DNA from: Plumapathes pennacea
Lineage: Eukaryota; Cnidaria; Anthozoa; Antipatharia; Myriopathidae
Assembly: GCA_964036295.1 (NCBI GenBank)
Contig: OZ038473.1
Location: 8,401,501 to 8,465,500 of the forward strand
DNA: 64,000 bases
Direction of reading: 5' to 3'
Shown here: positions 4,771 through 35,702 of the stretch, in pieces
How positions within the stretch are numbered: position 1 is the first letter of the stretch
How the letters are laid out: the number at the start of each line of letters is the position of its first letter
Notes under the pieces: generated by a model
Database searches by the model: none
The model's input: the letters and a program-made list of their open reading frames with translations, nothing else
What the model was told of the DNA's origin: nothing
Translations under genes and position numbers: made by a program

Positions 4771-7049
4771 ATGGCGTCTCAAATGAAGTGTGCACATTTT
4801 ACTTTGGATGAAGTTGTGGCTCGTTTTGAGGAATCTGACTTCGAAAACATCTCTGAGTGATGATGGCGGCATGTCCAGTTCGGAGGAGTCTCTAATTGAT
4901 AGGCAACTCCTGAATTCGAAGTCGGACATGAGGTAAGGCGTGCCGATGAATTTTGCAAGAAATTTTCGAAGCGGCATTCGCTTTCCCATACCACCCATTT
5001 CTTTGTTCCATTGTTCCGAGTACTTCTGTGAAACCATATCTTCATGTTAGAGCCGGTAATTCACCAAAACAGCAAACAGTATGATTTTCAAGCTGGGACG
5101 CGGTAATTTGATCCTAGCGCGTCCTTTTGATAAACAGCTGAGTCATCATGCGAAACAGCGCTTTGTGCCGTATTCACGGATTTTCCCTGGGCCAAAAGCC
5201 TACTCTTGCATCGCGTGTTCGCATGCTTCTACTCCCGTACGGTTCCCGTTGTTGATATCGGACTATTTCTCATTTTCTTATTTCATCGTTACAAAATCCT
5301 TGAAATGATTTATTTGTGTATTTATCAATAAATTGACTGCTTTTTTCTCATTTCATCAGTGATGAAGCTGTGGGTGTTGAGGTCAAAGGTGCTGAGGGTG
5401 CTGGTGGCGGTGATAATGCTGGAGTAGCTGCAGGACATGATGCTGGCAGCAGTGAGGATGAGGATGAAGGCCATGGTGGTGCTCATGCCCAGGTTGCTGG
5501 TGCGCTGAGACGTGAGGAAGAGAGTGGCAGCAGCAGTGAAGAGGAAGAGGGAAGAGAGCGTGGCAGAGGGTGCAGGCATGCACAAAGACGCAGACCTGAT
5601 GCTGCTCCAGGCCGTGGTCGTAGTGCTGTCCATGGTGCAGCTCGTGGTTGCGCCCGTGGTCGTGGTCATCGTCAAGCTGGACGTCGTGCTGGGCACTTGC
5701 CTCACCAAGAAGCTGAGCGGAGTTACGCATCTCCAGACAATGGAAATGAGCTTCCGCATTTCACACCAAATCGCCAACCAGATGTCCACTTTCCCCGGAT
5801 TGTCCTGAGAAATACCATGACAACAGCCTTGCAGTTTTTTCAGCTTTTTTTCACAGCACAGTTGATTTCAGATATTGCTACATATACTAATCATTATGGC
5901 TATATTCATATTGCAGATGGACAGCATGACAGTTATGCCCAGCTAGATGGTAGCTGGAAAGACACCACTCCTGAGGAAATTCTACGTTTTATTGCATTGC
6001 AAATATATTTTGGTCTTGTCAAGGTGAGTACATTGGACAGATACTGGTCAACGAAAACCCTCTATCATGGTCTTCGGGCCAGGTCCATCATGTCCAGGAC
6101 AAAGGTATTTTGCATTGATGTCCATGCTCCATGTTGTTGACCCCCTGGCTGAGGTTGTTGGCAATAAGCTGGCGAAAGTTCAAACATTGATTGGCCATTT
6201 CCAAGGTAAGTGTAAGGAACTGTACCAGCCAAGACAAAATGTTGCCATCGATGAACGCATGGTGAAGTCCAGGCATAGGTCTGGTATGCGTCAGTACATC
6301 AAAGACAAGCCCACCAAATGGGGAATCAAACTGTGGGTGCTCGCCGATAGTTTCAATGGTTACACATATGACTTTGATGTTTATATTGGCAGGGATGCAG
6401 CAAGGGATAGAAGTGTTCATGGTTTGGGTTATGATGTAGTAATGAATCTAATGCAATCTTTGCTTCACCAGGGTTACCGTTTATTCATAGATAATTTTTA
6501 TACATCCATGCAGCTTTTGCGAGATCTGTTTGAATTAGGTGTAGGGGCAACTGGCACTGTCTCCGAAAACAGAAGAGGATTTCCTGCTAATCTGAAGAAA
6601 AGCAAGCAGTGGGCAAGAGGAAAGGAAAGGGGTAGTATGAGGTGGGAAAGGGTTCCTCCATGCCTTGCTTTGCAGTGGAAGGACAACAGAGTTGTCTCCG
6701 TGCTCACAACCATTGACAATGCCAACGACCATGGATATGTCAGCAGGAAGGCAGAGACAGACAACATGTGGAGGACAGTGAATAACATGCCACAACCATC
6801 AGCGATTCGTAACTATAATAAATACATGAATGCTGTCAACAGATCCGACCAAATGCTGGCTGTAAATAATTGCTGAGAAAGCAGGTCAAAAGATGGTGGA
6901 AAACATTGTTCTTTCATTTTATTGATATGGCAATTGTGAATGCTTTTGTTCTTTTTGGGCAGTATCGGTCTGAGCATCCAGAAGTCGAGGAACTACAACG
7001 GGTTGCTGATTATTCTTTGTTAGATTTCAGGGATACACCATATTCATAA
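4771..7049 (+). pseudogene. piggyBac (PGBD4-like) transposase, two exons, inactivated
   Basis: This is a cut-and-paste DDD transposase. Exon 1 starts at ATG 4771 (MASQMKCAHF) and ends at 4932 before GTAAGG. The intron runs 4933-5359 and ends TTTCATCAG. The join creates a Ser codon and continues into an acidic Gly/Glu-rich N-terminus typical of this family. The catalytic core follows: IDERMVKSRH (first Asp, ~6250), RLFIDNFYTS (second Asp, ~6480), then YMNAVNRSDQML, where related proteins have GVD. The third catalytic Asp therefore appears to be Asn. The tail, including KRWWKTLFFHFIDMAIVNAF, ends at TAA 7047-7049 without the usual C-terminal cysteine-rich domain. Frameshifts lie near 4855, 6095 and 6868. 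A TTAA at 4548-4551 followed by CTCATTCACCCC could be the left end; I found no matching right end. Confidence 0.85.
4933..5359 (+). other. Intron of the piggyBac pseudogene
   Basis: The GT at 4933-4934 and the AG at 5358-5359 join two pieces that read as one protein (…NSKSDM / SDEAVGVEV…). The antisense reading frame across 4501-5037 is a shadow of exon 1. Confidence 0.65.
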
Positions 7050-8261: not shown

Positions 8262-9847
8262 ATGGTTCATTATTGCTGTGCGTACGGATGTTACAATAGC
8301 TCAACGGACCCTGAATTATCATTTCATGGATTTCCGAAGGATATGAAACTCCAGAAGGTACAAAAAGCACGATATTTCTCTCGCCATTTTACATGTTGTA
8401 ACGTATGTATCGAATGCTTATATTATGCGACATCAATCTCCAGGTTTGGGCTACCAGGATCAAAAGAGATATTCAAAAGGACTTCAGGATTACAACCAGC
8501 ACGAAAGTTTGTTCAGCACATTTCACGGAAGCGGATTTTGTTAATCCGAACACCAAGTCGCGAAGACTGAAGACGGGCGCTTGTCCATCGGTGTTTCAAT
8601 GGAAAGAAGCCATGCAGCCAAGAGAAAGTTCGGTGATATCAAAGAGAGCTAAACTGGAAGAAGACTTAAAGCTGCAGGAAGAAGAGCTAACGGCTACCGC
8701 CTCAGAAGGAGAGGGTATTTACGAAGAAACTCTTGACAGCAAAGTAAACAGAGGAATCCAAGTTAATGTACAGGTCATGTGTCAACATAAATTTTCCATG
8801 AAAGTGTTGATGTCTAAATGTACCACTCCAGCAAAAGAGAATAAGTACATGAAACACTATACTTGTTTTAAAAGCTATGAGCAGTTTCGTAATGTTCTTG
8901 ATTTTGTTCTTCCAAACCAAGACAGAACAAAGTTAGTGTACTGGAATACTGCTGCTGCAAAGGCAAATCTTGTAGATACCAATCTTTTGTTTGGGTGTAA
9001 CATTGCAGCAGAACCAGAAAGGAGGAGCGATAGTGAGGATGAAGATCCAGAGTATGTGGATAGGATCAAAGAGCATAAGCTGGAATTGGAAGATGAATTT
9101 TTGTTGTTCATGATGAGGCTTAAATTAGGGCTCAGTTGTTTGGATTTATCTCTTCGGTTTTGCATTTCTGAGGGCACAGTCAACACTATTGTGATGACAT
9201 GGCTAAATTTTCTGTATGTGCATTTGGGACACCTAAAGATTTGGCCACACAGAAATGTTGTACTAAGTAACATGCCCAAAGAGTTTAAAGAGAAATATCC
9301 CAACAACATTGTTATCATAGATGCCACAGAATTGAAGATTCAGACACCTTCTTCGTTGCTGAAGCAGTCACAGAGTTATTCTACTTACAAGAGTTCTAAC
9401 ACCCTGAAGGGGCTGGTGGGTGTAGATGCAAAAGGTGGCATTATGTTTGTGTCCCAACTCTACACTGGTTCTATTTCAGACAAAGAGATCACTGTTCGCA
9501 GTGGATTCCTTAATTTGCTGGAAAACAAAGTTTCAGTGAATGAAATTCTACCTGGTGACTCCATAATGGCAGACAAAGGTTTTGATATTGAGCCTCTACT
9601 AAAAAAGATGGGGTTATGTCTCAACATTCCTCCATTTTTAGGGGAAACTCCCCAATTTGATGAAGCAGATGTGGTGAAAACCCAAACAATTGCACAGCAC
9701 CGAATTCATGTCGAGAGAGCTATAGGTAAAGTTAGACGATTTAAGATATTTGCTTCCTATGTGCCTGTTACAATGCTTGGTACTGTTAACCAACTATGGA
9801 CAGTATGTTGTATTCTTTCTAATTTTATGGATCCCATATTAGCGTGA
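8262..9847 (+). CDS. THAP-domain DDE transposase (HARBI/DDE_Tnp_4 type), two exons
   Basis: The protein of about 500 residues binds the element ends and catalyses cutting and joining. Exon 1 is 8262-8357 (MVHYCCAYGC, 32 codons) and ends at GTACAA. The intron 8358-8443 ends TCTCCAG. Exon 2 is 8444-9847. THAP ligands are Cys5/6, Cys10, Cys55 and His58 (VCSAHF). An acidic linker is followed by a helix-turn-helix (about residues 250-285, LRFCISEGTVNTI). The catalytic motifs are IIDATE (~323), MADKGFD (~408) and VERAIGKVRR (~455), giving D, D, E. No stop or shift interrupts it. The start is chosen because THAP domains sit at the extreme N-terminus and this ATG begins one. Its 5' region lies in the left terminal repeat. 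Confidence 0.88.
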
Positions 9848-9978
9848 CTTTTTCTCTTATTTTATTGTTTAATCCCAATGAACTTACAGCATATACAAGT
9901 GTAACAACAACAATGCACTATTGTATTAAGGTTTTTGTTAATTACATTTGTAGGTAAAGTCCATTCTCACTACCAGTT

Positions 9979-11725
9979 CTATACTTTTGCAGAAAAATAT
10001 GGAAGAGCATGCTCAAAATAGAAAGATTTGAGTTTAGGCAAATAAGTCTGGTTCCAGAGGATAGGATCAGAATATATCCTCTGAACATTCATGCATCTTG
10101 ACCCAGACAGCAGAACCACAAAATCACACCATGGTAGTCCAGACAGAGCTAGCTGACCTTGAATCTGGGGGTAATAGCCTGCCTTATGGTTGGGTTTTAA
10201 TCGTGGTTTTTCACCTACCAATTCACACATAAAATCATGATCTTGGCAAGCTTCAGCAAAGGTATTAGACCTCCAACGAAAGGGGGCTTTAATTTCAATA
10301 AGTCCAAAGGGACTTCTTTCTGATGGGTCAAATACTTTTCCATCAGGGGACGCACCAAGAAAGGGATGGGAGGGGTTTACTACAAGACCTGTCTCATATA
10401 CTGTGAATTTCCTGTTTTGCTTTTGCATTGCTTGTGCATACAGAGATCTAGCAATGGATTCATTTGCTTTACCATGTGCAATAGAGGAAACATTTGACAA
10501 GTCTTTTGGTTCAAACAAATTTCTCAAAAAAGCATCACTTGGTCGTCTTTGACGCTTGAGAACCAACCCAAAGTTAGAAGCTGTTAGTCTAAATCTTCTT
10601 GCTGCAAACCAATTACGATCTGAGGACTGCTTTACTGTAGTCTTTGCAATACGTTGTGCATCTTCTAAAGTTAACATGACTTTAGAAATAATTTTATTCT
10701 GGTCTAGGGGTAGGTTAGTGGGAGGGCAATATGGAGCACAACATGGACCAAGTGGGAGGTCAGGAGATGGAAGAATAGTTGCTGGTTGATCTTGTTTGTT
10801 ACAAATTTCATTGAGGGGTCTATCAATAAAAAAAGTGAGCCTGTTTTCATCATGATCAAACAGTTGGTAACTTAGAAATGAACCCAATGGTACATCACCG
10901 AACACTGTGTTGACCGTCATTGAATGTTCCTGATCACTCAAGAGATATGAGTATGGAGGCGCTTTTCTTTCTGCCTCATTCATTCTACCGCACTCTTGCA
11001 TAACCAATTCTTGATCCCAGCCTTCTTGTCTGAGTACTTTTGATCTGGCGTCGTACAGCTTACATTTGACAGGAGGTCTCTTTCTGTTGCCATTCTGATC
11101 GCAGCTCGCCTGGGCAAAACAACAAGACATGACCGGCTCTGGTCGAACGCGGGATCCTCGTGGTTGATGCCAAGTTTGGGGTTGACTAGTGCAGGTTTTA
11201 TCCGCAGGGATTTCTCGAAGGCCCAAAAGAAACCAGTGATTCATTGTGTATAACAAACCAAATATGTGATTGCAGTGACCACCCATCCTGTGTAACAGCA
11301 AATGGATAGCAAATTAACTTCGTTCAGAAGCTCTAGCCGTGCAGGGCCTGCCATTGTGTAGTAAGTATTATGGCCAAGATTACTCACCCTGCTTTGCAGG
11401 AACACTTGGCATGGCGAATTTTTGCTCTCCCATCATCGTCGGCTACTATGATTTCCATGGAATGCGGTGGTTCATTTTTTCTCTGACTCCGATGACACCG
11501 ACCTTTGACACGACTCGCGATTTGATCACACTGGTTCAAACCCACGTAAACGTCTTGAATATACCCTTCAGTGAAAAATTTATAGCCTTTTTTTCCAATA
11601 TCTTTCTTTCCACAACTTTCTAAGTGCTTCTCGACTTGAATGAACGAAAACTGGGGCAAAGAAGCGATTGATTTCGTCCATGTTATGCTTGCGTCCGCCA
11701 TGTTGGAAAGCGTTTGTTTACCCAT
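9979..11725 (-). CDS. YqaJ-type exonuclease with SWIM finger, two exons
   Basis: This transposon-borne nuclease has the lambda-exonuclease/RecB-like fold. Exon 1 is about 11725-11388 and exon 2 is 11287-9979, with a 100-bp GT-AG intron between. The splice reconstitutes a SWIM-type zinc finger: CSCKAG at the end of exon 1 joins GGHCNH in exon 2. Downstream are the YqaJ motifs: FRLTASNFG, then LGASPDGKV (metal-binding Asp, ~427), IEIKAPF (~445) and YYPQIQGQLALSGLPWCDF. The product is about 548 residues with no interruption. The start is uncertain: the ATGs at 11725 and 11701 are both possible, and the frame stays open to 11809. It converges with the transposase, leaving 131 bases between stop codons. 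Related nucleases may process ends or replication intermediates; that role is inference. Confidence 0.85.
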
Positions 11726-12178: not shown

Positions 12179-12430
12179 ACTGTTTGTAGAAGTCAATAGA
12201 CCAAAACATAGGAACTTTCAAAAGCAAACAAAGCTGATTTAATTTTGGACCTATTAAAGCATCATTATCATGACTTGACAGGCAAATTTTTGGACGTTTT
12301 CTAGATCATTTTTCCATTGATTTTAAAGTCAACTAGAATAGCTTGAAACACAGAAAACAAGCAAACGCTCAAAACAATATTGTATTGCTAATGGTTTATT
12401 GTTTACCAATAATGCGGACCACAACATGCG
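12179..12430 (+). mobile_element. LINE endonuclease fragment (right part of the interrupted LINE)
   Basis: SLFVEVNRPKHRNF (from 12179) continues the frame lost at 7792 across the DNA transposon. Further on, in shifted frames, are HDLTGKFLDVF and FTNNADHNMRT, the region before the ISDH motif of L2/CR1 endonucleases. The homology stops at about 12430, where the next repeat unit begins. Confidence 0.7.
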
Positions 12431-12612
12431 GACTTGACAAACCGAGTTCTGGTAGGCAAGTCCCTACAACTTGGAACGTTTACCAACCTGACCATCACCA
12501 TAGGGACTTGGTCACCAAACCGAGTTTTGGGGTTCCACTTCATAAACCCTGGTCTAACTTTACCTATTTCACTGAATCGGGTCATTTTAGCAAAGAAACA
12601 TTGTGGGGCAGT

Positions 12613-12764
12613 ACCTCGGTGTAAGAACCCACAGCTGACGTCACAACCTCATATATGAACTACTCTAACCTTATAAACACATTCTGATCCCATAAACATA
12701 GGCGCATAATATTAATTCTAGCAACAATTAGTGTGATTGACTTGTGATTAAGATCATTGGAGCT
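12613..12764 (+). repeat. Left terminal inverted-repeat block
   Basis: The block from TACCTCGGTGTAAGAACCCA onward matches the reverse complement of 23139-23273 nearly base for base, and includes TAACCTTATAAACACATTCTGA. Confidence 0.8.
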
Positions 12765-12972
12765 CTGGAGCGTTGGATCAGTAGATCGCTGGAGCGTTGG
12801 ATCGCTGGAGCATTGGATCGGTAGATCGCTGGAGCATTGGATCAGTAGATTGCTGGAGCGTTGGATCAGTAGATTGCTGGAGCGTTGGATCGTTGGATCG
12901 CTGGAGCGTTGGATCAGTAGATCGCTGGAGCGTTGGATCAGTAGATCACTGGAGCATTGGATCGGTAGATCG
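12765..12972. repeat. 24-bp minisatellite, left terminus
   Basis: There are nine head-to-tail units of the type CTGGAGCGTTGGATCAGTAG(ATCG), eight of 24 bp and one of 16 bp, starting at 12765. Because 24 is divisible by three and the unit lacks stops in several frames, it creates long spurious reading frames (repeated Trp-Ser-Ile-Gly/Val-Asp-Arg) in more than one frame. Confidence 0.9.
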
Positions 12973-13496
12973 CTGCAGGTGGGAACAGAGCCAAAAGAGC
13001 CTGGGAACGATTCTCCGCCACTGCGGCCGCCATCTTGAAAATTACCCATAAGACACCTCAAAACGAGATGAACACCTTTTGACGATTTTTCATTGTTTTT
13101 TACTTCTACCTTTTACTTTTCTATATTTTTTCATTCGATATAGAGAAGGAAAGCAAGTAATTCATCCAGCTAGTGATCGATGATGAACGATGCTGGTGAG
13201 GAACTACTGTGTCAGAAAACTGACCGTGATCAACCGCCGTGAGGAATTACGCAAGGTACTATAACGATGGCCCGGGCTCATTTCCGCTGTCTCTGTGTTT
13301 GCTGAAAATAGAGATGTTTGGGCTTCCTGTGTTTTCAAGTAAACCAATGAAAAAGTGCGATACACGGCAAAAGCATGTGAAAAGCAAAGCGCCTGGCCTT
13401 TAGTGTTTTTCACTTTGGACTTCGTGCTGTCACTTGCAACACTTGGTATCCTGAGAAGTCACCTTTTTGGGTTTTACCCACAAAGATTTGGACAAC
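12973..13496 (+). promoter_or_regulatory. Presumed promoter/leader of the P-loop gene
   Basis: The stretch between the minisatellite and the ATG at 13497 has no conserved frame. It contains GCGGCCGCCATCTTG near 13022 and AT-rich tracts. Its position between terminal repeat and gene makes it the likely promoter; no core element is proven. Confidence 0.35.
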
Positions 13497-15459
13497 ATGA
13501 GTTCTTTCGATTACATCCAATCTGTAGCGGACTTGGAGAGTAAACTTGGGCAAGTCAAGATCCCATGGGAAGAGGTAGCACCACAGAACATCCAGGACTG
13601 GCTCAATACATTCGCCAAAAGTCATGGTACTTCGCATGAATTACTATTAGCAGGAATGCTGCCATCCACTGGAGCCCTCATCGGGGATACATCGGTGAAA
13701 TTGTTCGACTCTCTGAAAGAGAAGGGGAACTTATTTTTTGTTGGTCTAGCTCCATCTGGTGCCGGCAAAACGCAGGCGTGCAACATGGTCTGCGTGGAGC
13801 CACTAATCTCGCACCTCGAGCCATGCATACAAAGAAGTATCCTCATTGACTCCATATCAACAAATGGCCTCTTCAACCACTTCCAGAACAGTAAGAGAGA
13901 AGGTGAAGGGTTCATGTTCCTTTTTTGTGCATTGACGAGGGGTACTCTTTCTTGCACACGTTGATAGGTACCTCAAAATCGGCTTCGCAAACATCCGTTA
14001 CGATGGAACGCCTTTGCAAGTTATATGACAGCAATTATTGGTACTGCGTTAAGGGCCAGGGGAAACGAGTTGGTGTCCAGAGTGCCAGGATGAGTATAAC
14101 AACATTTACCACACCTAGAAGATTTCTCACTGAAATATGGCCAAAAGTTGTTCCTGGCAGGAATGGCTTGGCGGACAGGATCTTAGTGGTGTATCAGGAA
14201 CATACAACCAGGGAGATAGAAGAGATGGAGGCTTTCTCGACCCTTGTAGAGGAGGGATCAGTCAAAGGGCTAGGGACTGTGTATGAACAGATATATGTGG
14301 AGCACCATCAAGAGAACCCCATTGAATATACTCTCAGTCCCAGTGCCAGAGAACTGCATTATAAGTACTGCAAAGGACAAAACACACAAGCAGCTGCAGC
14401 TGGTGCGTTCAAGCCCGAATGCAATGCTAAGTCAACCAAAAATGCCATCAGATTGGCATTGAATCTTCACATAATTTGGCATCGTCTGGACCTTGCTCTG
14501 CAACAGTTGACAGCTCCAAAACCAAGAACTATCAGTGAGACCACTATGAGTTATGCCCTTGCACTGCATGATGCACTGCTTGCATTTGGAGGAATTGCAG
14601 AAGCGGTAAGTGTTTTGTTAGTGTTATTCTAGTAATAATTTTCTGGCCGTGGTGTAATATATAGCAGAAATCAAAAATTGAAGATAGGTATTCTGTTTTT
14701 TCAGTGGTAAACAATTTTTATGAATGAGCATATGTGGATGAGTAAAATTATAAAAATATAAAATTCAAGTCTGTCATGTAATTTTCTTTTTATCGTATAT
14801 ATACAGTCATCCCCAAAAATGTCTGCTTCAATATAAAGTTTCAAATTTCCTGTGGGTGCTAAAGGTTAATTAGGTTTTTCCATTTCTGGCAGTCTCACTC
14901 TGTCGTGATGATGGACTTGTCACCTTTGGTCCCTTTGCAGGACTTGGTCACATGACCATTTTGTGAAAGCTTTTGAGGTTATACTTAGCCAGAAGGTTTG
15001 CATAAATTAAATCAAAATAAACAATAATTGCATAATTATGTTACAATAATGTAAATCAACTTTATTTTGCAGTGTTTACAGCTCAAGAAGGGCACTGGAA
15101 TAGTGCGCATGTCTGTTTCTGAACAAGACATAAAGCACAGGATTCTTACAGTCGCAGGTCCATTCTGCAGCTCCAAGAGAGTTTATAATAGCTTTTCCTC
15201 AAGCTCAACTCCCAAACAAACGGAGGAGTATATGAGGGCACTGGAACAGGCATCCCTTGGCTCTGTGAAAAAGATTAGGAAGATGACAGTGTTCTACAAG
15301 GTGTTGCCCTCCACCCTGGTACACTCAGAGCATCAGTTGGGTAACTTCAATGTGTCCCTCAATGAGTACAAGGAGACCTTCCTGAAGAGTGACGAGTTAC
15401 TTCCATCCTCACAGAAGACCAAAATGCTCGATAAAATCACCCTAATGAAGATGAACTGA
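13497..15459 (+). pseudogene. DUF3987-like P-loop ATPase, two exons, one frameshift
   Basis: The protein is predicted at about 498 residues. Exon 1 is 13497-14605 (donor GTAAGT) and exon 2 is 15073-15459 (acceptor TTTTGCAG); the join is in phase. Walker A is LAPSGAGKTQA (about residues 84-95) and Walker B is FCIDEGYSFL (~142-151). After these come a region with TTFTTPRRFL and a helical C-terminal half. The layout resembles DUF3987 proteins, RecA-fold ATPases best known from phages and bacteria and often near primase or helicase functions. The only lesion is a one-base loss in a T run at about 13919-13926, just before Walker B. Its function here is unknown; a replication or transposition helper is plausible. 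The upstream TTG at 13467 is not needed; the ATG fits better. Confidence 0.65.
14606..15072 (+). other. Intron of the P-loop gene
   Basis: It starts GTAAGTGTT and ends TTATTTTGCAG. It is AT-rich, with no open frame of note. Confidence 0.75.
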
Positions 15460-15604
15460 GCCAGTACTTCCAAGCAGAAGGTGCAGAACTAGATTATGAC
15501 TAAATGTTAGGAACCGTCCACTCTAGGGTACACAGAAATGTAATTCATGATGACTGCTCATTTTAATCACGTAATCAAGTATTTTGAGAATCCTGTTAAT
15601 TTTT

Positions 15605-15714
15605 TTCTCTATATATTTCCTATCAGTTCATGGACCCTCTGACCCCACCCCCTCCCCACCAACCACCAACTACAACCTGCCCATCCAGAATTTCCAGTTC
15701 CCTCTGTGGTGGGG
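15605..15714. repeat. Pyrimidine-rich direct repeat, copy 1
   Basis: CATATATTTCCTATCAGTTC-type sequence, a run of CCCCACC and CCAGAATTTCCAGTTCCCTC recur in the same order at 16613-16699. Copy 1 has a longer C-rich middle. Confidence 0.8.
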
Positions 15715-15917
15715 TTTTTTGAGAATCCCGTTAATTTCTTTCCTTCCTTGAGATTTTTTATACAGCATTTTTAAATACATGTATATTGCTGTAGTTACAA
15801 TGTTAGATTCCACTGACAGATAGTCCCATATATATCAATAAGGTTGTTAAAGTTTGAGGAGAAATACAGCTTTTATCAAAACCATCATTTGCATTTACAT
15901 CCCAACAATTTATTTGC

Positions 15918-16154
15918 TTAACCTTTTCACTCCTGAGAGCAATCAACTTCAAATTTCTCTTTTCATCCTCTCACCAGAGATATATCATACAGTAAGGAGA
16001 ATTTGACATTTGATACCGTGAAAGGTGATTGAACTATGAGTTCTCGCAACATCACTCATACAGTCTTCTTGAATGGTTGAGAGAACATCACTCATACAGT
16101 CTTCTTGAATGGTTGAGAGAACTTCTATTATGAGCTCAGGAGTGAAAAGGTTAA
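15918..16154. mobile_element. TTAA-flanked MITE (piggyBac-like)
   Basis: The element begins TTAACCTTTTCACTCCTGAG and ends with its exact reverse complement, so the 20-bp termini include the TTAA target site at both ends. The length is 237 bp with no coding capacity. It contains a 36-bp perfect tandem duplication (16048-16083 and 16084-16119). TTAA and CCTTTT ends fit a non-autonomous piggyBac-type element. It sits downstream of the P-loop gene. Confidence 0.88.
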
Positions 16155-16870
16155 ATTGTTGTCAGTTTTTGCCATTTATAATAACATTATCATGATTCAA
16201 CATGACAGTACAGTATTTATTGTCAAACCAGTAGCAAGAACTATAGCAACTGCAATAGAAGTGTAAAATAAAAAAGATTGAAACACAGCTTTGTTCTTAT
16301 TACTTGCATTTGCTTTATTTTGAAAAAAAGAAAGCTTGGCAAGGGAACTTGGAAAAAGGTCAAATATATATTTTTAAATTAAACACCAATTATTGCAAGC
16401 ACATTTATAGTTTCATGGACCATGAAGCGAGTTCATATTGGGAAGGCTGGGTGTATAACCTGGGTCCAAGCACTGACAAATCTTAGAGAAAAGCAACTGT
16501 TTCGTATTTGACAAGAGCTTTTAAAATTTGATGAGATTATATCACAAGCATATTGTGTGACTCCAGAAAGTATCCAAACCCCCACCACCCCCTCACCCTC
16601 CAGAATTTCCACTTTTTCTCCATATATTTCCTATCAGTTCATGGACCCTCTGATCCCACCCCCGCCCATCCAGAATTTCCAGTTCCCTCTGTGGTGGGGG
16701 TAGGAAAATATTTTGTGGAATCACACATTAGTACTAGCATAAAATATTATTGAAAACAACTTATTATGAACTTGGGCTGTACAGTATTATCAATTCTTGT
16801 TTCATTGGGCTGTTTTGGTCACTTGAGTTTGCCCTGTCAAAAAACACATCAAGCACAGTATGTACACAGT
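16155..16870. other. Spacer between the convergent genes
   Basis: No gene is evident. It is AT-rich and contains the second copy of the pyrimidine-rich repeat (16613-16699). The polyadenylation signals of both convergent genes would be expected here. Confidence 0.5.
16613..16699. repeat. Pyrimidine-rich direct repeat, copy 2
   Basis: Same order of blocks as 15605-15714. It is preceded by a related C-rich piece (CCCCCACCACCCCCTCACC, near 16578). Confidence 0.8.
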
Positions 16871-17374
16871 TTAACTGAACCAGTTTAAACGAACTTGCTC
16901 TCTAAAATTTGTTTTAAACACTTTTTCATCATTAAGGAATGAAACGACTTTTACAGTTATTTGTTGAGGCGTTTTTGGGTGAATGTCTCTGTCATTCACA
17001 AATTGTGAATACTGTAAATAAATGATATCTATGTTGATGTCGTTGTCAGGTAAATGACTCTGTAAGAGTTGAAAGAGAACTAATTCTCCTAACAGGGTCC
17101 AGCTGTACCTGATGTCATGGCATGGTTGTTTTGAAATAAATGCCCTCCCTGAAAGGCTCCGAGTAGTCATCTGGGGTGCTCGTCTCTTCCTAGGGACTGA
17201 TGATAGGTTGAATGCACACTTCTCGGCAGTGTCATTTCTTCCATGAGGGTTCTGGCAGCCTATGCATTGACACTTAGCATTGCAACCCTTGACACTTTGA
17301 AAGCACTTGCATCTTTTTCTAAAGCTGTCACATGAGGAGATATCTTTTTCTTTCTTTCTTGCTCCTTGACCACA

Positions 17375-18061
17375 TCAACAGCTCTCTACAGTTAAGGACT
17401 CTTCAGTGGAGGTTTGCTTAATATCACTATGAGGAGTTGCAGTAGGTTGCAGTACTTCAACAGCATCATAATGACCTGGACCAGAATGATCAAATGCAAT
17501 GTACAATGGAATGCACTGCAAAGTCTCTCTTGGTGTAACTGGTATCACAGGTATATTCTCCATTTTGGATATTACAACAATGGGGGGGGGGGGGGGGGGT
17601 TTCAAGACATTGGCCATCGCAAGGGGCATTGAGTTCCCCAACTCACTGGCAAAGTAGCCATCGGTAAGAAAGGCATGTGCTTCAGTGTCAAAAGGTTGTT
17701 CATTTGTTAGGAATGCTCTGTACATGTCTGAATTTGACAACCATTCACAAACGACTAAATCCCGTAGTTTAGTACACATACTGGAAACATCTTTACAGTC
17801 TGTTAACCCCAGACCTTCAAGATGCTGAGCAACATCACTTGAAACTGATTTATCTGATAGGATTGTGGTGACTGCATGGGAAACAGATCGAAAGAAACAG
17901 TTGCCATCTGGTGGAACCTGTATGCGTGCCATGTGGTAGTTTGATAAAACATTATCCAGAGCTGTAGATTCTTGGTCACTAAAACATATCGAATTCAAAA
18001 GTGTTAATGAGCTATTTGCAAATAGAGCTGTATGTGGCTTAAATCTCTCATACTGGCCCAA
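17375..18061 (-). pseudogene. OTU cysteine protease module of the large element
   Basis: This is an OTU fold deubiquitinase-like domain. The catalytic Cys lies in DGNCFFRS and the His in GHYDAV, spaced as usual. A C19-G19 homopolymer at 17582-17600 encodes a six-proline run. The frame continues in phase on both sides: upstream across a TAG (…EELFRHI/SLGQYERF) and downstream across a TGA into the CXC cluster. The three pieces were therefore one protein. The substrate is unknown. Confidence 0.75.
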
Positions 18062-19093
18062 ACTCTAGATGTGCCGGAAAAGCTCCTCTGTGGCTTTTGA
18101 GCGATTTCTCATCCTACTTTGTTCCTCCTCATTCAAACTGCAACTCTCCTCTGTTGAGGAAGCATTCTCACAATGATCAAAAGTCATGCTCAAAATTTTC
18201 CTCATCTGATAAAACAGGTATATCGTTATTGAGATGGCCATTCAGTGTGCTAAATATTTGTTTCAGTGTTTTCTTCAGTATTGATTTCAGTTGGTTCAAT
18301 ATAATCTCCATAGCCAGTTCCATCACTGCATTCTGGTGAGTCAAAGTATGACTCCACTGGTGGCATCACTCTAATCTTTCCTTTATCTGCATCCCTTGTT
18401 GACTTTCTCATTCCAATTGTAAAAAAATACCCCAAGTAAAACCAATGCAAATTGCAGCCCAATTCTAGACTTCTTTAGAGTCTTATTTATAACCCTGTGT
18501 ATTCCTTCATTGTGATTTGTTCCTCCAGAAGGGGGGATATCTGATAGGCATCCTTTTCTACCATGTAGAAACAGTCTATTGATCTCATCAATGCCAGCCT
18601 CAGGAATTAGTTGCACACCCTCAAACTTCACTGACTTCCACTGCTTCAGGAAACTCTCAATGTTATTTTCAATGACAGGTCCTGATGGTGTTGACTTGGT
18701 CCTCTGTTTGCTTTGATCAGCTGGGTCTCTTATGACAAGCTTAAAGTCTGTTAGAATTTGCGAGTGTAGCTTTCATATAGGCAAGTGTAATGACCCCTTC
18801 TTTGGTATTGTTGTAGTGAAACGCTGTATTCCATGAAATGGGTCCAGCTTTATAAATGATCCCTCAAAAATGGAGTTCAATTTATTTCTCCACTGACAAC
18901 AATTATCAACATAAATTTGATGTATGTGACAGCCTTGATTGTCAAGTCTTTTCTTGAGGTCCTTTAGTAATCCTTCAACCACAGAGAAACTTGTCCCTTT
19001 ACAAAGTTTCCATGCTACCACAATGCTACAATCTTGGACAAAACCTGTTGAGACAAATGGCACGCTGAAGCATTTTTCTATTTTCGTGCCGAC

Positions 19094-20086
19094 AAATTGT
19101 CCCTCCCCCTCCCCCTCAGATACAATGTTGCATTTTTGTGGGCACAATGCTCTGGCCTGTCTGTTGAAACAAAAACAACATTGTGTGGAGGGGGGATCCC
19201 TCAAAATAGCGCCCATCAAGTTTTTCGTATTGCTCGCACTCTATAACACCTTGGCCGTAACTGATAGCTACGAAAAGCTTAACAACTTTTCCTCCGCTTC
19301 CCTCTTTGTGACCTTTAGCTGTGCATCCTTGCTGTAAACCTTCGCTCTTTTTGCGCCATATGTGACCTCGCGGCGACCTAGCCTGACTAAGAGGGTTTGT
19401 TTTAAAATAAAAACTGACCCCATCCAGATAAAACGCTACTGTTCTTGTCCAAACATCAGACCGGAAATGATCCTTCATGTGTCTTGCGAACTTGCGACGT
19501 TTTCGAAGGTCCATTGACGTCAACCCTTTCTTTTGTGCTTGTAGAAAAAAATACCCCTTCCGTCTTAAAAAGCACTGCACAGTTCGATTGCTGATCTTCT
19601 TCTCGTCAATATCGGCTTTAGTCATCAGTCTTTTTGAGTTACAGTTCCCTTCCTCCCGTCTTAACTGGTGTAACGCTCGAATAATGGTTCAGCTGTCTCG
19701 CTCAGATATTTTTCGCGGGCGGCCTCCGTTTCTTCTTTCCCTAGCATGTCCTATGTTTTTGTACCTGTATACAGTCGCTCGAGACACTTGGCACCTTGCA
19801 GCAATATCAGCTACCAGCAGGCATTTGTAACACAGTAAATAAGCCATGTATGCTCATGTTTCAGCGCTTAAATTCCCTCGGAACACCATCTTGTTAATTT
19901 TATAGTGATAATTTACAACACCATACGTCATTTCGCAAGAGCTTGACGTCATTGCATAAAGGCACTATGTCGCAATCAAAAGCCGTTCTGATGTTTCTAC
20001 AGTTTAATATTTTACTTTCTTGAAACATCACACTTCAAATGAACAACTGGAACAAAATATAACTGCCAGTTTAAAATTTATCGCAG
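19094..20086 (-). mobile_element. IS630/Tc1-type transposase remnant inserted in the transposase-like gene
   Basis: The minus-strand frames 19830-19625 and 19625-19116 give a helix-turn-helix (VADIAARCQVSRATVYRY), a GGRPRK basic hook, TVQCFLRRKGYFFLQAQKKG, a DDE start (VAFYLDGVSFYF) and SYGQGVIECEQYEKLDGRYF. One TGA interrupts the N-terminal part, and the region with the second Asp and final Glu is missing. The insert is flanked by a 66-bp direct duplication of host-gene sequence (19028-19093 and 20087-20152, one mismatch), far longer than the TA duplication expected of this superfamily. Confidence 0.75.
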
Positions 20087-20452
20087 ACAATCTTGGACAA
20101 AACCTGTTGAAACAAATGGCACGCTGAAGCATTTTTCTATTTTCGTGCCGACGTGTGTCAAGACTCGGGTGGAACTGCACAATCAGTGCTGTGTCTCAAC
20201 ATTTTGTTTAAGATTGTAGCTTCATTCATAACAATGAATAAGCTGTCATAGAGTTTAACCCACCTTCCATTGCACCAAAATCCAATGTTTGCAGGGACTT
20301 TAAATGTATGGTCTGCACTCAAAGAAGTAGCTATCATTTGATTCATTCTTCTTTGGTACAAGTGTTCCTTTGCAAAGTAATCTTGTATGAAGCAAGCTGT
20401 TGCTATTTTTTCCCGTCTTCTTTCCTTTTGGCAAAAAACTAGGGAATTCGCA

Positions 20453-20478
20453 TTGTTGTTGTTGTTGTTGTTGTTGTT
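20453..20478. repeat. (GTT)n microsatellite
   Basis: About eight GTT units on the plus strand lie inside a probable short intron of the minus-strand gene. Confidence 0.9.
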
Positions 20479-20605
20479 TACTTTCTCAATCCATGCTCAT
20501 CAAACAGACTCTGATGCCACAATACCTGCACATCAGCAATGGTCATTCCTGCTCTAATATGAGATGTGAAAAACTGGAATAATTCTCTGGTCACTCCAAC
20601 TCTAT

Positions 20606-22297
20606 AAATCAAAGCCGCGATGCCGCTGTAAGGTCAGCTATCTTTTTGATTGGCAGACTTTGGTTGTGGTCTAGTCCGTACAACAGGCTTGTCTTAACTG
20701 CTCTAAAGTAGGGGTTGCCTTGAGTGAATATAGTGGTAAAGTGATGTCACAAAAAATATCGGAATATGGATTTTAGACAATTCTGTGGAATGCCCTGTCT
20801 AAAAACGGTCACACAAAAAATTAGCTCTTTAGCGCATTGAACAGCTGAGATGTGGGCTATTGAAGTTCAAATTGCTCAATAATAAACCCTCCTATTTGGT
20901 GTTAATGGTTCCTTTGATTTAGAACTGATGGAGCTATCTGGTTGCTGTCAGCAGGGCTAGCGATTTGAAACTTTGCTCACGTTTGTGCAGCAGCTGTGTA
21001 TGTTTAGAGATTCGAATGAAAAATTTTGCAAAATAAGACGTCACGCTTGAGGGCAACACGCTTGCACTCAATCAAGCGTAACATGCATATTTAATGAGGC
21101 AATTGGCTCAGCTCAGAGAGTCAAATAACTTCTCGTAAACCTCAAAGTGGCCTAATCCCCTCAACTCAAAGCGAACATTGACAGGATATATTCTAAAGTG
21201 CACAAACCTTGCCCGCTTTACGGGTGTTTAAATCATTTTGAGCGGCATAACTTCCTTCCAAGCGGAAATACATATTCACGGTAATCATTAACTCGGGTTT
21301 CAAATGACGACGAATACAAAATGCTTTTTGAGTGAAGTTTATTATAGTCACATGAATGACCTGTCATAGAAGGTTCACATATTTACGGTCTCGGTAATCC
21401 GATGAAACAGATAAATATTAACCGGATGACTGAATGCGTACATACATACAAGAATGTGTTGTTTTCTTGCATAGTTCGTTCGAGCGAACTCTTAATAATA
21501 TTGTAACTCATTATCAACGAAGAACACCAAAGTAACCTTTCGTTCAAGGGCTTCGGCATACACAATATACTTCAAGTTTTGCGGTAAGTTATCCAGGTGT
21601 AACGTCGACTATCCGAGTAAAGATCTGACTGGAGTTTGTAGTTGCAGATGAGAAATACTCACACAGTACACACGGTTGTACGATTTGGTACGATACCGCT
21701 TTTATTAAACTTGATTAGCTTCTTATATATATTTCGAAATAGCCATTTCACAACTACGTTTCAGCGCATTATAGCAACCGTATTTGGCCTAAGCTATAAC
21801 GTTATCCATTAACTCCGCTACACAGGCAAATTTAAACTGAGGAATGTAAACAACTAAATCGCGCGCGTCCACTGCACAATGAGTGTCGATAGAGATGAAC
21901 GCCGGGTTCCTGTGTACGGCCAACCGACTGAAACATTCACACAAAATAATAACTACACGATCGATATAAAGTCCGTACCGTTACGCCAGTATGAAATGTT
22001 GTTTTCACACAGAGTTTATCAGGAAAATCGGGCGATGCTTGAAACGCTCGAGGTATCGGCCAAGAGCAAGTATAAACCTTTGGAGCATCTTCCGCATTCA
22101 TACCTTCACCAAAAGCCATGATTAAAAGGTTGTATAATTCCGTGCCTTTAAGTTAATCGATCTCTTGAAATGTATTTCATCATGCGTGTCGTGCCCAAAT
22201 TTGGAATAAACTTCCTAATTTGGAAGTCTATTGTTCACACAGATGACGGACTGATTGATGGACTGACGGTGTCATGGCCGCAACAAGGTCGTGCTTC
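20606..22297. other. Insertion or large intron within the transposase-like gene
   Basis: The homology of the minus-strand gene stops with …FKVGVSRK at 22298 and resumes with VGVTRELFQFF at about 20605. The 1.7 kb between shows a different, CpG-richer composition, several AT tracts (TATATATATTTC near 21725) and one small plus-strand frame (21879-22121). A possible donor (AAA/GTGAGAAG at 22300) and acceptor (GTGACCAG) exist, so it may be spliced. No known element is recognised. Confidence 0.4.
21879..22121 (+). CDS. Small intact frame of unknown function (80 codons)
   Basis: An ATG at 21879 (MSVDRDERRVPVYGQ) opens an uninterrupted frame to TGA 22119-22121. The product is charged and hydrophilic, with no signal peptide or membrane segment. 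I do not recognise it. The frame is relatively rich in CpG (CGC, CGG, TCG codons), unlike the decayed elements around it. It could be the first exon of a longer gene, a protein of the inserted unit, or chance. Confidence 0.3.
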   Translation: MSVDRDERRVPVYGQPTETFTQNNNYTIDIKSVPLRQYEMLFSHRVYQENRAMLETLEVSAKSKYKPLEHLPHSYLHQKP

Positions 22298-22899
22298 TCA
22301 CTTTCGTGAGACGCCGACCTTAAAAAGCACAAAAGGTGGTTGAAATTCATCTTCCACTTGAGATAGGATACTTGGATCGTGGCTAAGAGTTTCATGTTTG
22401 TTCTTGCAGAGATAAACTCTTCCAACTAACAAAACGTCACTGCGCAGGCCATAAAGCAGTCGAGGTTGGTTGTGCACTGTGCTACCATCTTTCCATCTGA
22501 TGGGATGGAGATGCTCTCGTTTTCCTTGTTCATCGCAAGACGGGCAGAATAAGGAAAGCTCAGGAAATTATGAGAGTGGGTCCCACAGCATTACATCTGG
22601 AACTAAAAATGCTTCAGCACAAACACCGAGTCTGGCTCTGATGTGTTGTCCTCGTGGAATTGCCCGAAACGGTCCAACTGATATAGAAATTCCTTCCCTG
22701 TTATGATTGTCCAGCACAACTTGGATAAATTGCTTCGTAGGTTGATCTGGGTTAATCACAAAACAAGTCAAGGACATACAAACGACAGCAACTAAAAGAG
22801 CAAAGAACAAAGACACGACAACCGCCATGTTTTCTTTGCCACGAGGAAGGGACTGGGAAGAAAGGGGGACTGGGAAGAAAGGGAGACTGGGTTGGAGAT

Positions 22900-23138
22900 A
22901 TCTACCGATCCAACGCTCCAGCGATCTACCGATCCAACGCTCCAGTAATCTACTGATCCAAGGCTCCAGCAATCTACCGATCCAACACTCCAGCAATCTA
23001 CTGTTCCAATGCTCCAGCGATCTACCGATCCAAACACTCCAGCGATCTACCAATCCAACGCTCCAGCGATCTACTGTTCTACGCTCCAGCGATCTACTGA
23101 CCCAACACTCCAGCAATCTACTGATCCAAATGCTCCAG
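22900..23138. repeat. 24-bp minisatellite, right terminus
   Basis: There are about ten units of the type ATCTACCGATCCAACGCTCC(AGCG), the reverse complement of the left array. Units vary by small substitutions and 1-bp indels. Confidence 0.9.
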
Positions 23139-23520
23139 AGCTCCAATGACCTAAATGTTGCTAGAATTAATATTATGCACCTATGTTTATGAGATCAGAA
23201 TGTGTTTATAAGGTTAGAGTAGTTCATATATGAGGTTGTGATGTCAGTTGTGGGTTCTTACACCGAGGTAAAGTCCATTGTGGGCCAGTACCAACCTGAC
23301 AATCGGCATGGGAATTTAGTCACCAAATCTAGTTTCGGGACTCAAGTCCCACAGCCTGTTTACCGACAGATAGCATGAGGACTTGGTCATCAAACCGAGT
23401 TCTGGGACACAAATCAAACGCTTTCTAACCAGACCGCGATGTGGGGACTTGATCGTCAAACTGAGTTGTGGAACTCGAGTCCCCACTTCATAAAACTTGG
23501 TCTAAATCTTTCACTAAATC
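23139..23520 (-). repeat. Right terminal inverted-repeat block
   Basis: 23139-23273 mirrors 12613-12764. The outer part to about 23520 holds several degenerate units around GGACTTGGTCATCAAACCGA, as does 12430-12560. Confidence 0.75.
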
Positions 23521-32485: not shown

Positions 32486-32898
32486 GAAAGACAAAAGCGC
32501 TTGAAAGCAAATACAGAGTTTCAGAATCAAAAGCGTGCCCAGCAGAAAACTCTGGAAAGACAACAGCGCTTGAAAGTGAATTGAGAGTTGCAGAAGCGAA
32601 AGCTGGCCCAGCAGAAACCTCCAGAGAGACAACAGCGCTTGAAAGCAAATCAGGAGTTGCAGAATCAAAAGCATGCCCAGCAGAAAACTCCAGAAAGACA
32701 ACAGCGCATGAAAGCAAATCAGGAGATGCAGAAGCAAAACCTGGCCCAGCAGAAAACTCCAGAGACAACAGCACTTGAAAACGAATTGAGAGTTGCAGAA
32801 ATGAAAGCGGGCCCAGCAAAAAAAAACCAGAATGACAACAGAACATGAAAGCAGATCAGGAGTTTCAAAAGCAAAAGCGGGCCCAGCAGAAAACTCCG
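32486..32898 (+). repeat. Six 69-bp tandem coding repeats in the Helitron N-terminus
   Basis: The unit encodes about 23 residues of the pattern ERQQRLKANQELQNQKHAQQ(KTP). Six copies run from 32486 to 32898, the fifth shortened by one base. The units would form a Gln/Lys-rich coiled coil. The second copy contains a TGA, and the fifth shifts frame. Confidence 0.9.
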
Positions 32899-33049
32899 CA
32901 AAGAGGGCAATCACCAGTGAGTCACTTTCCGACGTGGCAATGAAACGTCTGACAAAAGACGTGCTGCAGTTGTTGAAGAGTGTCACGATCAGAGACAATA
33001 TCTGCATGACCGTGGGTGGGCAAATCCAGAAACTCCTTCATTCCACGAA

Positions 33050-33470: not shown

Positions 33471-33948
33471 AAACTATTCTGTATGGCTTTTATGGTTGTA
33501 TTTAAATTTTTGACCTCTTGTGTATTGATTGCCAAATTTACACAATTATGCATTAATTACAATACAGCCATTCTTTGCCATTGTTTATATTCAACGAACA
33601 GCTGAACAAAGAACGCATGGTGAAATTTTGTTTTATCTCAATTCCTGCTTAATCAGACCACTGATTGTGTTTTGTTATTAATTGCTGCATTTTCATACAG
33701 AAGGATCGAAGAGAACACTACTGTGTACTCTGTACTTTGATATACTATTGCAAAAGCTTTAGTTTGTTTTTAGAATATTTGCCAATTTTTACTATCAGTC
33801 CTTAATTAATTTACAGTATTTTATGATCTATGCAGTGTCTTTTTAGCTGTCCATATGTGCATTCGTTTTTATGCCATAGACACTTGATGGATTCAAAAGC
33901 ATTTACAGCAGTGCTTTTAGGAAAGAATTATTTATTAGATAACACTTC

Positions 33949-35700
33949 ATGAAGACTATAGTGCGCCGCAAGCGAGTCTTGAAGGCCAACAATCCCTACT
34001 ACAAGGACATTATCATCGACTACAAATCACTGCAACAACTGCCTGAAGATGATGTTCCAAGTGGCCTGCTAATGGTTGAGAACAATGATGACAGCTCACG
34101 AAGAAGAGTTACACATAACCCTGATGAACCCTCTTATACACAGGAGGATGCTGATGGAGATGATGAACTTGCAAGAAGTTTCCTTCCTCTCCCACTCCAC
34201 AAAAAGCCAGATCAGGATGCAATCAGATCAGCTGTTGATGGACAGGATCCATTAGAATGGCCATCAGTCACTGGAAACTCCATCAATGAGTTCAAGACCG
34301 CAGGCCTGGCTTCTATGGCTTTTCCCACCCTCTTCCCATATGGAAAAGGTGACCCGACTAACCAAGGACAAAAGAGGGCTACATCTTTAGCTGACTCATT
34401 CAAGCACCTGCTGAAGTATTCTGACCAAGAAACTAATGGCCACTTTCGTTGGAGGTTTGCTTCTCATGCTCACTTACCCTACTGGGCTCTAAACATGAAA
34501 CACAGGCACCAGCTGTTATCCCAAGTAAACATCTACCTGAAGCAGCACCCCAAAGATATATAGAAGAACTGCGTTCAATGGTGAAAGATATGTCGGCCAA
34601 ACAACTGATGAACCGGGTAAAGATGTATGCCACCAAGATCCAGGGCACCAGGCAGTATTGGTTCCATCACCTACAGAAACTTTAAGCACCGTTTGACCAG
34701 AAGGGATACCCTACCTTCTTCTTAACTGTCAGTGCAGCAGATAACTACTGGTCAGATCTCCACTGCCTACTGCAGCAGCCAGAAGGTGCAACCCGTGGTA
34801 TGCAGATGCAAGCTATTATCAACAACCCCAATCTAACAGATTGGTACTTCTCAGTCAAATTGCCAGAGTTCATCAACCATTGGATGTATGGGTGCCTTGA
34901 TGCAAGTTGGCACTGGTATCAATATGAATGGCAAGTACGTGGATCTATTCACGCCCATGGCTGTGCTTAGCAGAAGAATAACCTTGGACTTTGTGACCTC
35001 ATCACCAAAGCTGCCAAGGGCTGGGAAGCACAAAATATGCTCTCTGATCCCAACGCTAATCGCGAAGAGCTGCTGGCAACAATTGCAGAGGGCAACCAAG
35101 CCAAGGTAATGGCAGTCGAATGTGCAGATTGGCTAGTGACAACAATGAATGAGGCAATGCTGGACTTCAATGCCAACTGTTTCCAGCAGTGTGCCAAGGC
35201 ATGAACCAAGAAAATGTCAGCACTCAAATGTTGCACTATGTCACAAATGTTCACTTCAATCACTGCATCATCAACTCAATCAAGTGTGAGGCATTGAACC
35301 AGCAATCTATGATGGCATGCAGGTTTCAGAAAGGTGCATCATGGCAAAGCTCCATCCTGTTGTACAAACTCTACACAGCACTTCCAACCAGTCCTGATGG
35401 CAACTGCCTGTGGCATATGGTCTCACAGGGACTGATAGGCACAGAAGATTTGACAGCTGACCTGCGACTCCTAACCTTGCTGACAATGATAGAGAATGAG
35501 CAGTACTTCAGGCAGCTCCTCAGCCTTGAGAGTAAAGATGACACGTTTGCAGACATTGTCATGACAGCTGCCACATGGGGCTTGGGGTGGAAAATTTCAT
35601 CTCCATGCACTTTCCTTGTACTGAACAGAGCAATATATGTCTACTCAACATTCCGTCTCAGGGATAGCAATGGACACCAATATTCAAACAAAAGACCGTT
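33949..35700 (+). pseudogene. Helitron Rep (HUH) and OTU remnants, copy B
   Basis: 33949-34560 is a clean frame (RRKRVLKANNPYYKD, DEPSYTQEDADGDD, FPTLFPYGKGD, HFRWRFASHAHLPYW). It ends in a TAG just after HPKDI, where the next frame continues. The HUH motif appears as RGSIHAHGCA, followed immediately by a stop, and the Rep region then breaks off near FNANCFQQC. 35189-35700 encodes an OTU protease start (SPDGNCLWHMVSQGL, VMTAATWGLGW). Compared with copy A, six codons are missing near 33985. Confidence 0.7.
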
Positions 35701-35702
35701 AT

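Follow-up and report, generated by a model that had tools for sequence, protein, structure and literature searches.

How does a gene for a P-loop ATPase come to lie beside a transposase-like gene between mirror-image, minisatellite-bearing ends? This question is raised by a locus of the antipatharian Plumapathes pennacea (assembly GCA_964036295.1), whose genome comprises 290 Mb in 24 contigs, labelled C here. The window that we analysed is a stretch of 64,000 nucleotides (C12:8401501-8465500, contig OZ038473.1), in which a preliminary description had placed an undescribed two-gene DNA transposon between positions 12430 and 23520. We consider it likely, from sequence comparison, that window positions 12607-23275 (10,669 bp) hold a decayed copy of a cut-and-paste DNA transposon with two genes, a predicted D-D-E transposase being accompanied by a helicase-type P-loop ATPase of the DUF3987 family. 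The copies of the element have the marks of a class II transposon with terminal inverted repeats (TIRs): inverted ends, a constant 8-bp target-site duplication (TSD) and, for the copy C7:10.88, an empty site.

Eukaryotic cut-and-paste transposons are mostly regarded as one-enzyme systems. Among the matches listed in the open literature, no eukaryotic transposon was described as carrying a DUF3987 ATPase, and the four papers that combine DUF3987 with transposons concern bacteria or phages, judging by their titles.

Ends, target sites and copies of the element

The left TIR (12607-12728, plus strand) starts with the tip GGCAGTACCTCGGTG and carries a TGACGTCA box at position 30. It pairs with the right TIR (23154-23275, minus strand, tip GACTTTACCTCGGTG) over 122 bp with 8 mismatches, and the terminal blocks 12612-12731 and 23151-23270 are 96% complementary. 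Two further loci (L003 and L047) start with GGCTTTACCTCGGTGTA, which backs the same first base for the left tip in the window. Across copies the tips start with GG, the exception being one window tip with GA. At first look, TA was considered as the target duplication and was dropped once further copies had fixed the tips. The element is flanked by two identical 8-bp copies of CATTGTGG, at 12599-12606 and 23276-23283. The limits originally proposed were too wide, the outer ~180 and ~245 bp being flanking DNA; the mirror-image terminal blocks with their 24-bp minisatellite, on the other hand, were borne out. Inside the tips follow mirrored arrays of the 24-bp unit CTGGAGCGTTGGATCAGTAGATCG, which belongs to the GATC class, with ~9 copies on the left (12753-12975, plus strand) and ~10 copies on the right (22900-23138, minus strand), and then two convergent genes, the ATPase on the plus strand and the transposase-like gene on the minus strand.

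The TGACGTCA box is common to tips of different subfamilies, 30-49 bp from the end (window 12636-12643; ~504-511 in L013; also in L003). We take it to be a CRE motif, and perhaps it serves as a promoter for both genes.

Both tips were readable in five insertions, and in four of these the 8-bp TSD is exact: CATTGTGG in the window, GCTGAATG at C7:10875042-10882435 (C7:10.88), GAGGTTTC at C7:12565293-12568654 (C7:12.57) and ATTCTTTC at C8:6410761-6418374 (C8:6.41). The fifth, C11:10257727-10264422 (C11:10.26), matches in 7 of 8 positions (TTAAATTT/CTAAATTT). In C3:10.46, C1:13.51 and C3:9.14 the tips are cut or decayed and the TSD is not readable. A paralogous empty site for C7:10.88 lies on C10 in a diverged repeat, 89% identical across 249 aligned columns, where the flanks meet without a gap around one copy of GCTGAATG; for the window insertion, no empty site was found. 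The copies C7:10.88 and C3:10.46 are 97-99% identical over their shared parts, which indicates that the last spread was recent.

To describe the recurrence of the unit, we used the window ATPase as query, giving 23 matches that merged into 18 loci, and the C8 transposase as query, giving 52 matches that merged into 32 loci. These include the transposase rows of a further search, whose rows with a match to nothing but the Tc1-like part of its query were left out. For 12 of the 18 ATPase loci a transposase locus lies within 10 kb; when the loci were placed at random on eleven contigs 10,000 times, the number averaged 0.04 and never exceeded 2. The unit thus recurs at other places in the genome more than expected by chance. 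Both genes together with arrays at both ends are found in seven units of four subfamilies (window, C7:10.88, C11:10.26, C3:10.46, C8:6.41, C1:13.51 and C3:9.14), of which C3:10.46 carries extra DNA and has its right tip cut, C3:9.14 is without the right tip and C1:13.51 has decayed tips. Besides these, C7:12.57 is an internal-deletion derivative that retains the ATPase and the transposase N-terminus and has its own exact TSD.

Within this genome, the two genes and the minisatellite-bearing termini on both sides therefore do recur as one unit with a TSD of constant length (8 bp), as the preliminary description had envisaged. The length is not uniformly the ~10 kb that it had named: the measurable two-gene copies without a large insert span 6.7 (C11), 7.4 (C7) and 7.6 kb (C8), the greater length of the window copy being due to its inserts.

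The recurrence also bears on the explanation that an ATPase gene lies in or beside a transposon as one of two separate elements, brought together by chance and duplication. Lone ATPases and lone transposases exist, and gene order varies, being convergent in most pairs and co-oriented in C1:13.51, C3:9.14 and C7:5.10, which this explanation would accommodate. However, both genes lie inside complete TSD-flanked units, the pairing is found in four subfamilies, some of them at saturated synonymous divergence, and the random expectation is the 0.04 loci given above. We regard a chance association as highly improbable.

Two candidate units were set aside. The C2 transposase remnant (L080, L056 and L081; C2:13891620-13895770) lies beside 9-bp TATAGAGCC arrays, and an ATPase was not found; it was not counted because a 107-bp direct repeat flanks it. 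An array follows the clade III ATPase at C8:790499 at a distance of 0.8 kb downstream, and with the membership of this ATPase in a unit unproven it was excluded from the nine units whose arrays are compared below; a reverse-transcriptase-bearing element, presumably DIRS-like, lies upstream of it. Within C3:10452345-10466464, the extra DNA sits where the two matching parts of the copy overlap by 8 bp (L053 732-739), which would be expected of a second insertion, by an element that duplicates 8 bp of its target.

The ATPase gene and the transposase-like gene

The ATPase is encoded on the plus strand in two exons, the edges of which were read from the sequence. Exon 1 (13497-14605) contains the DUF3987 domain with Walker A and Walker B and has one frameshift at ~13922-13928, followed by a probable intron (14606-15072, gtaagt...cag) and by exon 2 (15073-15459), which encodes the C-terminal domain and shares 57% of its amino acids with exon 2 of L005. 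By eye, and as a guess, exon 2 resembles a winged helix. The ATPase is also found in two separated parts in L005, L007, L008, L011 and L013. Both Walker motifs claimed earlier are present, though in different frames: the open reading frame (ORF) 13455-13964 contains Walker A (APSGAGKT), the ORF 13907-14632 contains Walker B (CIDEG), and the frameshift lies between the two motifs. The family assignment exceeds the gathering cut-off of PF13148 (27 bits), with 53.5 bits for the window ATPase (E=2.8e-14) and 73 bits for L005, and a DUF3987 match turned up in just one of 14 control genomes, that of Bacteroides ihuae. In this score, and in its similarity to the helicase/primase families of PHROG (best E=2.1e-7, L005), the ATPase resembles the DUF3987 proteins of bacteria and phages. 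It differs from them in its probable spliceosomal intron and its setting in a eukaryotic TIR element, and no primase part was seen in it.

The similarity to phage primase/helicase families would also be expected if the element were the remnant of a larger, Polinton-like self-replicating element or provirus that had been cut down to two genes. We find this scarcely credible: the four TSD-flanked units besides the window measure 3.4, 6.7, 7.4 and 7.6 kb, no further long gene appears in the ORFs of the pieces read, and polymerase, capsid, packaging and integrase genes had no match among the element proteins scanned. Relatives of the ATPase and the transposase were not detected in phages by tblastn. 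A pattern search of IMG/VR gave 0 hits for the transposase and 82 for the ATPase, none of them confirmed, and a search of GTDB genomes with the ATPase pattern alone gave 21 and 307 hits, again none confirmed.

The ratio of nonsynonymous to synonymous substitutions (dN/dS) of the ATPase was 0.10-0.14 between the C7 type (C7:10.88 and C3:10.46) and the type of C1, C3:9.14 and C12:8.36. The seven finite comparisons behind this range share sequences and so count as one contrast, and the values are rough because dS reaches 1.5-2.4. In the saturated ATPase pairs, the proportion of nonsynonymous differences stays well under that of synonymous ones. These values suggest that the ATPase is probably maintained by selection and is not a passenger. 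For the transposase, two pairs gave dN/dS values of 0.22 and 0.12.

The transposase-like gene runs on the minus strand and was described earlier as one protein combining a transposase with an OTU protease and a CXC cluster. Its motifs and domain pieces were found, with OTU and CXC below cut-off and the D-D-E core probable; the gene is not continuous, being split by inserts of ~1.7 kb and ~1.2 kb, with the pieces for the second D, the E, OTU and CXC in separate ORFs (18773-19240, 18383-18772, 17375-18064 and 16871-17374). Its Cys/His-bearing N-terminus (22301-22864) shares 72-89% of its amino acids with L047 and 47% with L053. The larger foreign insert (20616-22300, edges approximate) fills the gap to the next transposase piece (20209-20615; ORF 20158-20496), which was matched to relatives and carries the first D (SADHTFKV). 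The smaller one (19040-20208, edges approximate) holds a Tc1-like transposase fragment on the minus strand (HTH_Tnp_Tc3_2, E=5.6e-4, below cut-off); it comes with a 66-bp direct duplication (19028-19093 = 20087-20152), and its stretch has many copies in the genome. Two further pieces, aligned with relatives, contain the second D (YVDNCC) with the DxxH signature LDPFHGIQR (18773-19039) and the probable catalytic E (GTNHNEGIH, 18383-18772). The OTU-like protease domain (17375-18064; OTU/otubain E=0.003-0.012, below cut-off) shows GNC and GHYDAV motifs by eye, and the C-terminus has the CXC cysteine cluster (16871-17398; MSL2-CXC E=4.4e-5, below cut-off; L058 match at 17129-17398). With the ATPase frameshifted and the transposase split by two inserts and further breaks, the window copy is, judging from its reading frames, dead.

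In the alignment, the blocks SADHTFKV, VDNCC and NE-H are conserved with relatives and are the probable D, D and E. The second D is followed by the stretch LD[LIP]FH[AG]IQR, which agrees with the C/DxxH signature given in PMC9587614. The Cys and His motifs of OTU are present in the window and C7 copies; the Pfam hit of the window copy is sub-threshold. The C8 copy has S in the aligned Cys column and, by eye, an altered His motif, which suggests that the protease is dispensable in some subfamilies, and the OTU domain appears to be lost in some of them.

A transposase-like gene of the same family with long open frames lies at C6:11464190-11468737 (L078, L079), where the first D is replaced by G and NE by TE. 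An ATPase was not found nearby, and the 14 kb of sequence inspected contained no arrays; this is possibly a domesticated gene.

To place the transposase, 16 aligned pieces and ten further pieces were scanned with Pfam at an E limit of 10. None of the established eukaryotic transposase superfamily models (including hAT and P) matched, a miss that is no proof of absence since the HMMER filters discard most matches above E 0.1. The sole transposase-type match was DDE_Tnp_1_3, below cut-off. The IS256 model NF033543 matched 3 of the 16 members in the same profile region, at best with 19.7 bits (E=3.5e-4) against a curated cut-off of 150 bits, and we treat this likeness only as a lead to shared ancestry. 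Profile searches against PDB gave nothing usable (best OTUD2, E=0.15; other best E=0.89). Motifs and remote similarity suggest that the product of the large gene is a D-D-E transposase with an RNase H fold, belonging to the hAT/P/MuDR/Kolobok/Dada (C/DxxH) clan; its N-terminus would be of a zinc type, and OTU and CXC domains would lie at its C-terminus.

A diverged element of the MULE/Rehavkus type that carries the ATPase gene as a passenger would explain several of these features. The TSD of 8 bp falls inside the MULE range of 8-11 bp, and some MULEs have a second ORF and long or internally repetitive ends, as far as the excerpts of PMC6446971 describe them. The same excerpts give Rehavkus a minisatellite near the 3' TIR, a 9-bp TSD, a PHD finger and one ORF, and, for Rehavkus of Tribolium, a 9.5-kb element is described whose inverted termini contain satellite repeats (PMC6446971, PMC10218199). 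The DxxH signature of a C/DxxH D-D-E transposase, shared with MULE/MuDR, and the weak IS256 similarity point the same way. However, the MULE model PF10551, with 30 matches in the genome (11 over cut-off), matched neither at element loci nor in any of the scanned pieces, and MULE/MuDR elements are unlike ours in having no DUF3987 partner. With Rehavkus, the element shares the minisatellite near an end, whereas its TSD has 8 bp, its genes number two, and a PHD model is missing among the Pfam hits of the scanned pieces. We consider the MULE/Rehavkus explanation unlikely and read the transposase, from its sequence features, as a family of its own in the C/DxxH clan.

Other known groups share single traits with the element. 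The KDZ group (Kyakuja, Dileera, Zisupton) was considered, prompted by the 8-bp TSD and the CXC domain; its transposase is large, with extra domains. Its model PF18758 gave 21 matches in the genome, none of them at element loci or in the scanned pieces, and membership in this group was rejected. The 8-bp TSD is reported for Zisupton and one Dileera family in the excerpts of PMC12730594. Kolobok lineages, according to the parts of PMC9587614 that treat them, share the clan signature and also have accessory enzymes adjoining the transposase, a RecQ helicase in KolobokH and an exonuclease in KolobokD. In contrast to the TTAA of Kolobok, the element duplicates CATTGTGG, GCTGAATG, GAGGTTTC or ATTCTTTC; its partner is a DUF3987 protein and not RecQ, and its ends bear minisatellites.

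Mosaic elements and a possible division of labour

By best match, the 18 ATPases fall into clade I (11), clade II (4) and clade III (3). All seven readable terminal arrays of clade I belong to the GATC class, and both readable arrays of clade II to the TGGTTCTC class, one of them as a 49-bp remnant; for the other six clade I and II ATPases, no array was found within ~1.5 kb on either side. Mosaic elements separate the modules. A transposase of the C8:6.41 type is found in C1:13.51 (90% amino acid identity over 166 codons) and in C3:9.14 (75-89%), whose left tip matches the C8 tip except for 2 of 40 positions. The ATPase of both elements is 60-64% identical to the C7 type versus 40-41% to the C8 type. 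In both, ATPase and transposase point the same way, and the arrays at the two ends are of the GATC and not the TGGTTCTC class. Conversely, L047 has a tip and a transposase of the window type but a TGGTTCTC array, and no ATPase was found near it. The mosaics and the nine readable units together indicate that the class of the array goes with the ATPase, and that of the tip with the transposase. One simple exchange is insufficient for C3:9.14, since its left array has a C8-type tip on one side and a C8-type transposase on the other; either gene conversion from end to end or joint selection has to be invoked. Low dN/dS and a joint exchange with the array are unexpected of a passenger, which disfavours the passenger gene of the MULE/Rehavkus explanation.

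For the two-gene transposon that we favour, a division of labour can be proposed from the tracking of array with ATPase and of tip with transposase. As is standard for D-D-E enzymes, the predicted transposase would recognise the outer tip, excise the element and join it to staggered 8-bp cuts. The DUF3987 ATPase, as a regular partner, would load on the minisatellite arrays, a role suggested by selection, by its family and by the tracking of the modules. There it might spend ATP on synapsis, bringing the ends together, on unwinding or remodelling, or on target licensing; the preliminary description had inferred a replication or target helper. One guess for the OTU domain is that it would shield the complex from ubiquitin-dependent turnover.

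Bacterial two-component transposons such as Mu, Tn7 and IS21 use ATPase regulators of the AAA+ type. The element would be analogous to them in having a transposase, a separate ATPase and the proposed division of labour; it is unlike them in that its DUF3987 protein matches helicase/primase families. A bolder proposal, which we put forward as possible rather than probable, is that the element represents a new superfamily and a true two-protein machine, in which the tip would specify the transposase and the loading array the ATPase, the modules would be swappable between subfamilies, and the mosaics would be natural swap experiments. If the family does maintain a helicase-type ATPase by selection and swaps it jointly with its minisatellite, the two-component logic of bacterial transposons would extend to a eukaryote, minisatellite-bearing ends would gain a function, and the reason for repeat arrays in transposons would become directly testable.

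Several observations weigh against the two-gene transposon with a partner ATPase that we favour, beginning with the pairing of its genes. Of the 18 ATPase loci, 6 have no partner within 10 kb, and the same holds for 20 of the 32 transposase loci. Two extra DUF3987 hits (C7:4254930 and C12:4550287), outside the 18, are partnerless as well, which brings the count to 8 of 20, and a transposase-only group on C4 means that the ATPase is not always present. An occurrence of the genes independently of each other, named earlier as grounds for refutation, is thus seen in part. The partnerless loci fit decay, loss or partner exchange, and the pairing is not universal. Other dN/dS values of the ATPase are 0.73 (C7-C3:10.46) and 1.17 (C3:9.14-C1) in close pairs on a dS of 0.008-0.025, 0.51-0.53 for the C12 copy versus its close relatives, and, near saturation, 0.27 (C7-C8, exon 2) and 0.54 (window-clade III). 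The ATPase could be a passenger or act at another step. Motifs and sub-threshold hits are the basis of the transposase class, and NCBIfam also gave weak hits to unrelated proteins, of strength similar to or below that of IS256. Finally, the suggested link between array and ATPase draws on a single clear swap and some four subfamilies, hence on few independent events; 7 of the 9 units are near copies within subfamilies, the clades were assigned by best match, and an array with no function could also be spread by gene conversion from one inverted end to the other.

Further elements in the window

The window contains other mobile elements besides the one described. At 8402-11313, a THAP and DDE_Tnp_4 transposase adjoins a YqaJ-type nuclease gene, which looks to us like a two-gene transposon of the ISL2EU type. 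Two overlapping frames at 5337-6876 encode a DDE_Tnp_1_7 transposase, presumably of the piggyBac type. At 33943-35749, an OTU domain (E=5e-7) comes after a protein stretch that has no match in Pfam and is assumed to be Helitron-like, and a retrotransposon with RNase H and integrase domains at 48249-50842 is taken to be of the Gypsy type. A 69-bp tandem repeat is present at 32486-32904 and at L088:456-674, the units of which look alike by eye.

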